Assembly: GCF_008014675.1 (NCBI RefSeq)
Contig: NZ_VOXD01000002.1
Location: 1 to 64,000 of the forward strand
DNA length: 64,000 nt
Reading direction: 5' to 3'
From: Neolewinella aurantiaca
GTDB lineage: Bacteria > Bacteroidota > Bacteroidia > Chitinophagales > Saprospiraceae
A program made the translations under genes and the position numbers. This document shows, piece after piece, positions 54,951 to 64,000 of the stretch (position 1 is its first letter; every line of letters begins with the position of its first letter). Below the pieces are notes generated by a model. The model did no database searches, was not told the origin of the DNA, and saw only the letters and a list, made by a program, of their open reading frames with translations.

Positions 54951-55997
54951 ATGGATGCCCTACGCCAATCCACGTTCAATAATGTGCCTAATTTGGTTTA
55001 CGTGTCCGACGATAAGCCCGGTTGGACACGAAGACGTTGCGGGCGCGGATTCAGCTACTTCCGGGAAGACGGATCACGGATCAGAGACAAACTCATCCGC
55101 GACCGCCTCAAGGCACTCGCTATCCCTCCCGCATGGAGGGAAGTGTGGATTTGCCCCCTCGAAAACGGACACCTGCTCAGTACCGGCAGGGACGATGCAG
55201 ATCGTAAACAGTACCGTTACCATCCCGACTGGATGGCCTACCAGCAATTGAATAAATTCAGCCAACTGGTCGGGTTTGCGGAGTTGCTTCCTGCCGCCCG
55301 GCAGGGAATCCGGACCATCATCACCGACCGGAGCCAGCAATGGAGCCACCGCCGGGTCTCGGCTATCGCCGTAGCCCTCCTGGACGAAACCGGGATGCGC
55401 GTTGGCAACGCCTCCTATCAACGAAAGAACGGAACCACCGGCCTGACCACCCTGCGCCGCAAACACGTCGAAACCGATGAGGATGGTCTCCACTTCGATT
55501 ATACCGGAAAGAGTAACATCGAACGCTCGGTCGATCTCGCTGATAAAACCCTGGTACGGCTGGTGCACAATATGAGTGAACTACCGGGCTATAAAATTTT
55601 CCGCTACCGGGATGCAGATGGCAAGATGAAAGACCTCGACAGCCGGGATGTGAACGAAATGATCAAAGAGCTGGTCGGACCAGATTTTAGCAGTAAGTTC
55701 TTTCGTACCTGGGCAGCAACTTCTTCTGCAGTACGGGAATACTGGGAGCTCCGGGAAGAAAACGGCGGTAAAGTACCTGAAAGGCCGGACCTTAGGGTAA
55801 CTGAACGGGTAGCCGAATTTCTGGGGAATACGGTCTCTGTTTGCCGCAAATACTACATCCATCCGGCGGTGATGGCGGCCATCATCGATGGCAACGTTCC
55901 TGGTCCGGAATCGGTCAGTTCAAAAGACGAAGAGCGTTTCTCAGGGGAGTTTGACCTGGAAGAAATTATTGCCTTCTCCCTGTGCTCCGCGAAGTAG
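54951..55997 (+). CDS. Poxvirus-type DNA topoisomerase IB
   Basis: The 348-residue protein has the bacterial TopIB layout: an N-terminal domain (GWTRRRCGRGFSYF, IPPAWREVWICP) and a catalytic domain with LDETGMRVGNASY, GLTTLRRKHV, FRTWAATSSAVREYW and VCRKYYIHPAVM. Tyr302 in YYIHP is the likely nucleophile. It relaxes supercoils by a 3'-phosphotyrosyl intermediate without ATP. Its last 32 bp overlap the end of the convergent porD gene. Confidence 0.93.
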   Translation: MDALRQSTFNNVPNLVYVSDDKPGWTRRRCGRGFSYFREDGSRIRDKLIRDRLKALAIPPAWREVWICPLENGHLLSTGRDDADRKQYRYHPDWMAYQQLNKFSQLVGFAELLPAARQGIRTIITDRSQQWSHRRVSAIAVALLDETGMRVGNASYQRKNGTTGLTTLRRKHVETDEDGLHFDYTGKSNIERSVDLADKTLVRLVHNMSELPGYKIFRYRDADGKMKDLDSRDVNEMIKELVGPDFSSKFFRTWAATSSAVREYWELREENGGKVPERPDLRVTERVAEFLGNTVSVCRKYYIHPAVMAAIIDGNVPGPESVSSKDEERFSGEFDLEEIIAFSLCSAK

Positions 55998-61816: not shown

Positions 61817-63031
61817 ATGCCGACCAAAGCCTACATCTACGACGCCCTGCGCAGCCCCCGTGGCCGGGCCGATGGCAGTAACGCCGATCTTTACGAAGTT
61901 AAGCCTATCGATTTGCTGAGCCAGTGCCTTCGTGCGTTTCAGCGAAGGTCCGGGCGCGAAGAATTACCGGCTAGCATCGACGACCTGATCATCGGGTGCA
62001 ATACTCCGGTTGGAGACCAGGGGTACAACATCGCCCGTGCTGCATTACTCAACGCAGGGTGGGGGAGTGCCCGGGGAGGTTTACAGATCAACCGCTTCAA
62101 CACCTCCGGCCTGGAAGCCGTCAACCTTGCTGCGGCCCGCATCACGGCCGAGTATGGCGAAGTCATCATCGCCGGCGGCATCGAATGCATGAGTCGCGTA
62201 CCTACTTACCTCAATGGCGGCCCGATGCTCAACGATCCCTCTACGGTCATCAATAGTCACTACATCCCTCAGGGAGTGGCGGCCGATCTTGTGGCGGGCT
62301 CCAACGATATTTCACGTGAAGAACTCGATGCGTACGCCTTGAAGTCTCACGCCAAAGCGGTGGCGGCTCAGAAGGCCGGGCGCTACAGCAAGAGCCTCGA
62401 GCAAATAGCGGACGCCAATGGCCTCGTTATTCTCGCCGAAGACACCATCTGTAGCCCAGGGCTGAATACCGATGACCTCGCAGAACTGCCGCCCCGGTTT
62501 ACAGAAATGGGGCTGGCGGGGTTCGACGAAATGGCCCTGCACCGGTTTCCGCTGGTCGACCATGTTGAGCACAGCCATACAATCGGAAACACCTCCAAGG
62601 CGGCCGATGGCTGCGCCCTCGTCTTGCTGGGCAGCGAGAAAGCCGGAAAAGAACTCAGCCTCATCCCCCGGGCCCGGATCAGGGCCGTTGCAATGAGCGC
62701 CGTGGATGCGACTTTGTTGACGGGCGGTCGCAATGCTGCCGAGTTGGCCCTGGCCAAAGCAGGGCTTGAGGTGAAAGATATAGACCTTTGGGAATTCAAC
62801 GAGTCTTATGCTGCCCCGACAATCCGGTTTCAGCGGCACTTTGAAATCGAAGACGATTGCTTCAATGCCCTCGGCGGAGCTATTGCGCTGGGCGAGCCTC
62901 TCGGGGCGGTTGGCGGAATGATGCTTTGCCAGTTGCTCGATGAAATGGAGCGCCGTGATCTTACCCTTGGCAGCCTCACTATCGATGCCGGTGCCGGCCT
63001 GGCCGTCTCAACTATTATTGAAAGAGTATAG
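61817..63031 (+). CDS. Thiolase-fold protein lacking the catalytic Cys, His and second Cys
   Basis: The ATG at 61817 gives 404 residues; a GTG at 61799 would add six. The protein has the FadA-like degradative thiolase framework: ALRSPRGRADGSNADLYEVKPIDLL, GDQGYNIARAALLNAGW, IIAGGIECMSRVPTY, TIGNTSKAADGCALVLL, WEFNESYAAP and GGAIALGEPLGAVGG. Three catalytic positions are changed: NRFNTSG has Asn95 for the nucleophilic Cys, GEPLG has Glu360 for the His of GHPLG, and TIDAGAG has Asp390 for the second Cys. Asn328 of the NEAFA-like motif is kept. It cannot work as an ordinary thiolase. It precedes a fatty-acid-oxidation gene, so it may be a pseudoenzyme partner or a new catalyst. Confidence 0.85.
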   Translation: MPTKAYIYDALRSPRGRADGSNADLYEVKPIDLLSQCLRAFQRRSGREELPASIDDLIIGCNTPVGDQGYNIARAALLNAGWGSARGGLQINRFNTSGLEAVNLAAARITAEYGEVIIAGGIECMSRVPTYLNGGPMLNDPSTVINSHYIPQGVAADLVAGSNDISREELDAYALKSHAKAVAAQKAGRYSKSLEQIADANGLVILAEDTICSPGLNTDDLAELPPRFTEMGLAGFDEMALHRFPLVDHVEHSHTIGNTSKAADGCALVLLGSEKAGKELSLIPRARIRAVAMSAVDATLLTGGRNAAELALAKAGLEVKDIDLWEFNESYAAPTIRFQRHFEIEDDCFNALGGAIALGEPLGAVGGMMLCQLLDEMERRDLTLGSLTIDAGAGLAVSTIIERV

Positions 63032-63099: not shown

Positions 63100-64000
63100 A
63101 TGATTCACTACCGCAAAGACACTGACAATATTGTTACCCTGATCCTCGACATGGAGGGTAGGAGCAGCAACCTGTTGAACCACGAGCTGGTTGCTGCCTT
63201 CCAGCCGGTAATAAAACATTTACAAAGCGAGAAGGCCGCCGGCCGGGTAAGTGGTATTATCATTACCTCCGCAAAGAAGGACTTCCTGCAGGGGGGAGAC
63301 CTTTCCTATCTCCGGGAACTCAAAGATCCTGAAGAGGCCTTCAACGCAGCCCAAAAGTTGAAAACGTTTCTACGTGACATCGAGCGGCCGGGAGTACCCG
63401 TAGTCGCGGCAATAAACGGTGACGCCATCGGTACCGGTTTTGAGCTGGCCCTGGCCTGTCATCACCGGATAGCGCTGGCCAATCCTAAAACCAGGCTTGG
63501 TCACCCTGAAGTGAAGATCGGGCTCATCCCCAGTGGTGGTGCGGTAATCCGGCTCATGTGGCTCCTTGGTATCGAACGGGCCTATCCGCTCTTGCTGGAG
63601 GGCAGGCGCTACAGCCCGCAGGAAGCACTCAAAGTGGGGATCATCGATGATCTGGCGGATGACCAGACGGGGCTGATGCGAAAAGCCAAAGCGTGGCTGC
63701 TGTCTGACCCGCCCACCCAGCGCCCCTGGGATGAGGAAGACGGCGAAATCCCCGGAGGGACAGCCGCTGAACCAAACCTGGGGCACCGCATCAGGTTGCT
63801 GACCGCACGACTCTCCGCAACTTACAATGATCTGTACCCTGCAGAGCGGGCTATCCTGGATTTGCTGGCCGAAGGCTCTAAGCTCGACTTCGAAACCGCA
63901 TGTCGGCTCGATAGCAGGTACTACGCCCGGGTAGCCACCGGTCAGGTGAGCAATAATATGATTTCAACTTTCTGGTTCGACAAGCAAGCCATCCGGACCA
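63100..64000 (+). CDS. FadB/FadJ-like multifunctional enzyme, N-terminal enoyl-CoA hydratase part (cut by window end)
   Basis: The frame starts at 63100, 68 bp after the thiolase-like gene, and runs off the window after 300 codons with no stop. It has a crotonase domain: IIITSAKKDFLQGGDLSYL (first oxyanion-hole strand), VVAAINGDAIGTGFELALAC with a Glu where the first catalytic Glu is expected, and RLGHPEVKIGLIPSGGAVIRL with the second Glu. The usual GGG before FELAL is GTG here. The 3-hydroxyacyl-CoA dehydrogenase half would lie beyond the window. Together with the thiolase-like gene it forms a fadBA-like pair for beta-oxidation. Confidence 0.85.
   Translation, partial: MIHYRKDTDNIVTLILDMEGRSSNLLNHELVAAFQPVIKHLQSEKAAGRVSGIIITSAKKDFLQGGDLSYLRELKDPEEAFNAAQKLKTFLRDIERPGVPVVAAINGDAIGTGFELALACHHRIALANPKTRLGHPEVKIGLIPSGGAVIRLMWLLGIERAYPLLLEGRRYSPQEALKVGIIDDLADDQTGLMRKAKAWLLSDPPTQRPWDEEDGEIPGGTAAEPNLGHRIRLLTARLSATYNDLYPAERAILDLLAEGSKLDFETACRLDSRYYARVATGQVSNNMISTFWFDKQAIRT

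Follow-up and report, generated by a model that had tools for sequence, protein, structure and literature searches.

A rebuilt thiolase site without the Cys/His/Cys set in the beta chain of a Neolewinella trifunctional beta-oxidation enzyme

The product of a fadA-like gene in Neolewinella aurantiaca is not a thiolase if judged by its residues, although descent, sequence and the pairing of genes make it the beta chain of a trifunctional beta-oxidation enzyme (TFE). The gene occupies positions 61817–63031 (+) of the window, by which we mean the whole 64,000-nucleotide stretch that was analyzed (contig NZ_VOXD01000002.1, positions 1 to 64,000), and encodes 404 amino acids without the Cys/His/Cys set. 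The three positions hold Asn, Glu and Asp instead (N/E/D; other triads are given below in the same order). The last step of the complex is probably gone, or another activity has taken its place. Our best reading, held with moderate confidence, is a beta chain without Cys-based thiolysis that holds the complex together and still uses its pocket.

Results

The open reading frame at 61817–63031 is uninterrupted, and its product is a type I thiolase homologue matching the Pfam domains Thiolase_N (2.4e-33) and Thiolase_C (3.5e-25). Its nearest solved relatives are PDB 3svk (2e-103) and the chains of Mycobacterium tuberculosis FadA (about 8e-103 over residues 2–404). In the alignment with 3svk, residues 95, 360 and 390 sit in the CxS, GHP and CxG fingerprints, and a MAFFT alignment with relatives gives the same placement. 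The CxS loop reads NRFNTSG in the window versus NRFCASG in 3svk, the GHP loop GGAIALGEP versus GGAIAMGHP, and the CxG loop LTIDAGAG versus LITLCIGGG. By the alignments and by codon reading, Asn95 (AAC, 62099–62101) stands at the nucleophilic Cys, Glu360 (GAG, 62894–62896) at the GHP His, and Asp390 (GAT, 62984–62986) at the acid/base Cys, all on the + strand. This bears out the initial annotation, made from the sequence without database searches, that all three catalytic residues are replaced.

The same annotation had described the remaining fold motifs, the NEAFA-type Asn included, as intact. Asn328 is indeed kept, together with Glu329, but the replacement of the following Ala by Ser330 had gone unnoticed; the loop at 62798–62806 (+) reads NES, within NESYA in the window and NESFA in most relatives. 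Human T2 thiolase relies on four catalytic residues, namely the two Cys, the GHP His and the NEAF Asn; this Asn holds the oxyanion hole 1 water in place (PMC6790690). Across the N/E/D clade, the CxS Cys, the GHP His and the CxG Cys are absent, and only the NEAF Asn is present.

A catalytic Cys/His/Cys set elsewhere in the chain was considered and rejected, as both alignments put the fingerprints at 95, 360 and 390; Cys266 and Cys371 are the caveat. Cys371 is found in all 21 N/E/D sequences and Cys266 in 20 of them, and none of 41 Cys/His/Cys rows has a Cys at either position. Being new and fixed, these two residues could in principle join in the chemistry. Cys37 also occurs in 21 of 21 N/E/D sequences, but it is present in three other rows too.

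Among family models, NF006090, an NCBIfam equivalog, scores best for this protein yet falls under its cut-off (446.2 vs 514 bits), and TIGR01930, a subfamily model for acetyl-CoA C-acyltransferase, exceeds its own (282.6 vs 240.55 bits). That TIGR01930 accepts a protein without thiolase residues is a warning about automatically assigned names.

The fadA stop is separated by 68 bases from the start of a fadB-like gene on the same strand, encoding an alpha chain (enoyl-CoA hydratase/3-hydroxyacyl-CoA dehydrogenase; 63100–64000, +). This gene continues past the window to a total of 701 aa (L039:5100–7205), and its best match is the M. tuberculosis TFE alpha chain (E 8e-167). Both catalytic Glu residues of the hydratase and the His and Glu of the dehydrogenase are retained in 41 of 41 aligned alpha rows, which include 23 N/E/D rows from 20 genomes. 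Both genes are present in all 28 of the other loci that were compared (two repeat a genome, leaving 26 distinct ones), and they adjoin on one strand in every locus examined that has either the N/E/D site or the Q-type site described below. A short overlap of a few bases between fadA and fadB occurs in 9 of the 20 distinct N/E/D loci and in each of the four loci of the sister genus, g62. The thiolase fold, the full-length similarity to TFE beta chains and the pairing with an alpha gene identify the N/E/D protein as a beta chain of this enzyme.

In the dehydrogenase part of M. tuberculosis FadB, Ser441 and Ser512 point into the catalytic site (PMC11301753). The alignment with the M. tuberculosis chain places Ile and Ala at these positions in the alpha chain of the window. 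Because the alpha rows of Saprospiraceae with a Cys/His/Cys beta chain are alike here (Ile or Val, and Ala or Gly), we take the substitutions as a family trait unlinked to the changed thiolase site. His135 of the alpha chain had looked like a parallel change coupled to the rebuilt beta chain; the Cys/His/Cys loci L218, L222 and L225 also have His135, and the idea was abandoned.

In the locus comparison, no other gene accompanies the fadA–fadB pair throughout, so the operon context was dropped as a clue to the substrate. A 101-aa open reading frame lying upstream in a locus of the sister genus is seen again in 16 other loci (nine N/E/D and one sister-genus among the ten listed) and is missing at the window's own locus. 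Elsewhere in the window, a 348-aa open reading frame (54951–55997, +) resembles, by eye, a type IB DNA topoisomerase.

The N/E/D site occurs in 21 of 21 sequences, one per genome, from 21 Neolewinella genomes; the gene was found in all 20 same-genus genomes searched, and the nearest relatives in the search were mostly Neolewinella/Lewinella. Identity to the window protein is 75–91%, with one sequence at 64%. N. persica (L076) also reads N/E/D. Of 395 genomes from the phylum, two matched a DNA pattern written for the GEP motif, namely the window's own and one congener. In the family it matched 24 of 398 genomes: the 21 Neolewinella, two of genus g63, and G597. These counts are lower bounds, since five of the seven Q-type sequences read GEA or GDA and are missed by the pattern. 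The match in G597 and a second match in G018 were rejected, as neither is a thiolase. In genus g63 the protein search gave matches in seven of nine genomes, and all seven have the Q-type site, with Gln at the first position, Glu (5) or Asp (2) at the second, Ala (2) or Ser (5) at the third, and NESF. In six of these seven genomes there is, in addition, a Cys/His/Cys FadA that belongs to a different branch.

The presence of N/E/D in 21 of 21 genomes rules out a lone decayed copy or a sequencing error. In these 21 sequences the codons vary only synonymously at position 95 (AAC 16, AAT 5), at 360 (GAG 9, GAA 12) and at 390 (GAT 4, GAC 17), and Asn328 is AAC in 19 and AAT in 2. In six close N/E/D pairs, dN/dS is 0.023–0.073. 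The mean entropy of the active-site loops relative to the rest of the chain, with loop limits set by us, is 0.29 in N/E/D (21 rows), 0.31 in Cys/His/Cys (28 rows) and 0.64 in Q (7 rows); this set omits L001, L002, L084, L085, L086 and nine distant Cys/His/Cys rows. The initial annotation had argued against simple decay, and we come to the same conclusion because the site is fixed, its codons change synonymously, dN/dS is 0.02–0.07 and the loops are conserved as in Cys/His/Cys relatives. By these sequence measures, the rebuilt site is under selection.

The alpha chain provides a reference for the rate of the beta chain. Within groups, the beta/alpha distance ratio is 0.98 for N/E/D (188 pairs), 0.88 for Cys/His/Cys (35 pairs) and 1.74 for Q (10 pairs). 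Measured against Cys/His/Cys rows, it is 1.21 for N/E/D and 1.41 for Q. The N/E/D beta chain now evolves nearly like a working subunit, and the Q clade less so.

The genome of N. aurantiaca holds two more thiolases with Cys/His/Cys, on contigs C23 and C37, which settles the earlier suggestion to look for a normal thiolase; the C23 gene adjoins one for a 799-aa dehydrogenase/hydratase protein. At E ≤ 1e-15, 20 of the 21 genomes of the genus have three Thiolase_C genes and one has four. Among the loci returned (G018 gave none in this reading), a Cys/His/Cys thiolase with intact motifs of the C23 type is present in 19 of 21 genomes and one of the C37 type in one more.

In a beta tree built without columns 95, 330, 360 and 390, from 11 of the 21 N/E/D sequences and with 14 named ids omitted, N/E/D forms one clade (100/100), a grouping that the first reading had proposed to check. 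Genus g62, which has Cys/His/Cys, is its sister group (99/94), and the Q clade is placed elsewhere. The alpha tree also groups N/E/D with g62 (100/99). The beta stem of N/E/D is 0.80 versus 0.24 for g62, and the alpha stems are 0.34 and 0.34. The history of N/E/D is that of a burst of change in the beta chain only, followed by constraint. The N/E/D gene is probably an ordinary TFE gene that was converted at its original locus.

The beta data do not reject N/E/D plus Q as one clade (p-AU 0.396). The alpha tree, in which the outgroup branch is very long, rejects their single origin (p-AU 0.00088). Because of this rejection, and because the 101-aa open reading frame is common to g62 and several N/E/D loci, two origins are likelier; the state of amide, carboxylate and NESF probably arose separately in Neolewinella and in g63.

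N/E/D and Q have several beta changes in common relative to the residues that prevail in Cys/His/Cys rows, namely G304 (mostly P in those rows), S330 (A), Glu360 (H; two Q rows have Asp), I389 (L) and S398 (A). We compared the sharing with 300 LG+G4 simulations on the tree, run without site preferences. Four shared changes were observed at columns conserved to at least 85% in Cys/His/Cys (simulated mean 0.60, maximum 3), and seven columns invariant in Cys/His/Cys are altered in both clades (mean 0.51, maximum 5); the observed 4 and 7 include the finding's own columns 95, 360 and 390. In a second run without these columns, the three shared changes observed were reached by 10 of 300 simulations and the four invariant-column changes by none of 300. 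The chance level is too low in both runs, since the simulations have about 60 invariant columns versus 93 real ones. Without its own three columns, the sharing exceeds the neutral simulation weakly.

These parallels bear on an alternative that we consider unlikely, in which the N/E/D site cleaves a CoA thioester by a new chemistry without an acyl-Cys. Glu360, Asp390 and Ser330 might then serve in acid–base steps and Asn95 and Asn328 as amides of an oxyanion hole, possibly in retro-aldol cleavage of a 3-hydroxyacyl-CoA or in hydrolysis of the 3-ketoacyl-CoA made by the alpha chain. In its favor, two separately placed lineages reach an amide (Asn/Gln), a carboxylate (Glu/Asp) and NESF. In SCP2-thiolases HDCF replaces NEAF, and its Cys may be a catalytic Cys (PMC7682436). 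Ser330 is the third letter of the same motif, and by analogy it may play a part like that Cys. Furthermore, Sal and Ltp2 cleave C–C bonds, and Sal has Gly at the position of the nucleophilic Cys (PMC12329534). However, no third gene accompanies the pair throughout, the beta tree alone is compatible with one origin, and the shared changes outside the three columns are matched by some of the simulations. The Q lineage also argues against it, with Ala or Ser at the third position, an altered GNxS segment and a fast beta chain. It is improbable that the N/E/D beta chain has become a lyase or hydrolase whose amide, carboxylate and serine groups act on the hydroxyacyl- or ketoacyl-CoA of the alpha chain, with g63 having come to a similar site independently.

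The thiolase site has also been lost irregularly elsewhere in the family. All 79 matches of the homologue search were read for the triad. The last 32 comprise 26 with Cys/His/Cys, the others being D/H/G, R/F/D, E/A/P, C/Y/S, C/H/S and one match that ends early. In 38 loci read later, eight repeat known genes and 24 are Cys/His/Cys, and the new kinds are C/H/P and -/D/S; in a further search, the locus was obtained for 30 of the 64 matches listed. The NEAF Asn is lost as well in D/H/G, R/F/D, E/A/P, -/D/S and the alpha-linked C/Y/S.

The alpha chain is intact beside the D/H/G, R/F/D, E/A/P and C/Y/S betas and was read in part beside C/H/P; for the S/H/C beta (L116), an intact alpha begins about 1.3 kb on. 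No alpha chain was found in the DNA stretch examined around the -/D/S gene, and L078 leaves no room for one. Wherever an irregular beta has an alpha in reach, the alpha catalytic residues read are kept, except in L246. In L246 (G041, FadA C/Q/C) and in L226 (G591, FadA C/H/C), the catalytic His of the alpha HAD part aligns to Lys.

Two further kinds of altered FadA relative were observed. One, C/Y/S with VELF for NEAF, occurs in four genomes of genus g57 (G076, G677, G720 and G615; L242 and L237–L239), and in G076 no alpha chain lies within 11 kb around it. The other, C/H/S (L085, L130–L133 and L208), has AEAF or NEGF for NEAF and GHA for GHP, and is found in Saprospiraceae and a SAR92 bacterium; there is no alpha beside L085 or within 11 kb around the L208 gene.

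The genes with E/A/P, R/F/D, D/H/G and -/D/S (L244 in G064, L243 in G042, L241 in G021 and L236 in G557, respectively) are apparently decaying subunits, and they indicate that thiolysis can be lost in this family. Such losses beside intact alphas fit a second alternative, which we find less probable than the preferred reading while taking it seriously: a dead beta chain kept solely as the assembly core of alpha, its new residues being neutral or packing replacements. Each beta-oxidation TFE tetramer is built on a beta2 dimer core (PMC11301753), other lineages lost the site with unrelated residues, several of them beside an intact alpha, and Cys/His/Cys thiolases elsewhere in the genome can finish the reaction. 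On the other hand, the NEAF Asn is gone from D/H/G, R/F/D and E/A/P, whose beta/alpha ratios against Cys/His/Cys rows are 1.41, 1.99 and 2.13, whereas N/E/D keeps the Asn at 1.21 (0.98 within the clade), with active-site loops constrained as in Cys/His/Cys clades. The split between Asn and rate is not clean, as C/Y/S without the Asn stands at 1.08 and Q with it at 1.41. S/H/C is also at 1.08, and together with C/Y/S it indicates that an altered triad need not go with speed.

Discussion

We propose that the N/E/D protein is the beta chain of an alpha2beta2 TFE of the mycobacterial type, a complex suggested by gene pairing and homology. In Neolewinella its thiolase site has been rebuilt, with the nucleophilic Cys changed to Asn, the GHP His to Glu, the CxG Cys to Asp, and NEAF to NESF. 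As read from these residues, no acyl-Cys intermediate could form at the usual place, so the protein would be no thiolase by the known mechanism. The alpha chain, with its catalytic residues intact, would still hydrate 2-enoyl-CoA and oxidize the product to 3-ketoacyl-CoA, and the beta dimer would remain the core on which alpha assembles. Conservation and rates suggest that the beta pocket still takes acyl-CoA in a non-thiolytic role under selection. Cleavage of the 3-ketoacyl-CoA would presumably fall to another thiolase of the genome, one with Cys/His/Cys. Against use of the pocket, the beta chain is slightly faster within N/E/D than within the Cys/His/Cys clades (0.98 vs 0.88), and packing alone could account for the conservation of its loops.

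The initial annotation had inferred either a pseudoenzyme scaffold or new C–C chemistry, and of these two the scaffold is the likelier. It had missed that the protein is a TFE beta chain beside an intact alpha, that NEAF has become NESF, and that other lineages of the family have lost the thiolase site.

TFEs carry the thiolase site in their core beta dimer. Neolewinella has retained both genes, with a site that has been rebuilt, is under selection and is devoid of the thiolase residues. The family also offers stages, with a Cys/His/Cys sister, rebuilt sites and decayed ones. The retained gene pair and these stages make roles of the beta chain besides thiolysis, such as assembly, channelling, ligand binding or other chemistry, directly testable. 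Among the titles listed in searches of open-licence literature, none was recognizable as an account of a TFE whose thiolase chain is catalytically dead.

Chain-length factors and KSQ domains of polyketide synthases also have the thiolase fold with an amide residue in place of the catalytic Cys, and are kept in a larger complex. Unlike the N/E/D FadA, they belong to the ketosynthase family and act with acyl-carrier-protein substrates. We know of no change of a GHP-type His to Glu in either.

The closest known system is the FadA–FadB complex of M. tuberculosis (PDB 4b3h, 7o1g and others), which is the top match for the alpha chain and among the top three for the beta chain, both over their full length. 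Its beta chain has Cys/His/Cys and NEAF, whereas the N/E/D clade has Asn/Glu/Asp and NESF; in the HAD part, its Ser441 and Ser512 (PMC11301753) contrast with Ile and Ala in the window. Sal and Ltp2 share with the N/E/D protein a thiolase fold with altered catalytic residues, and they form complexes with hydratases, Sal being without the nucleophilic Cys (PMC12329534). They differ in belonging to an SCP2-thiolase-like branch and in having a DUF35 Zn-finger partner (PMC12329534), and also in a YDC/YDH motif with a catalytic Tyr. The N/E/D clade lacks the YDHF/YDC motif and its Tyr, the corresponding loop being NESY or NESF. The comparison with Ltp2 made in the first reading is apt in that thiolase-fold aldolases with altered residues exist, but it does not extend to the thiolase branch or to the partner, which here would be FadB. 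The window protein is a TFE-type FadA with a FadB partner, and Ltp2 is its parallel in principle only.
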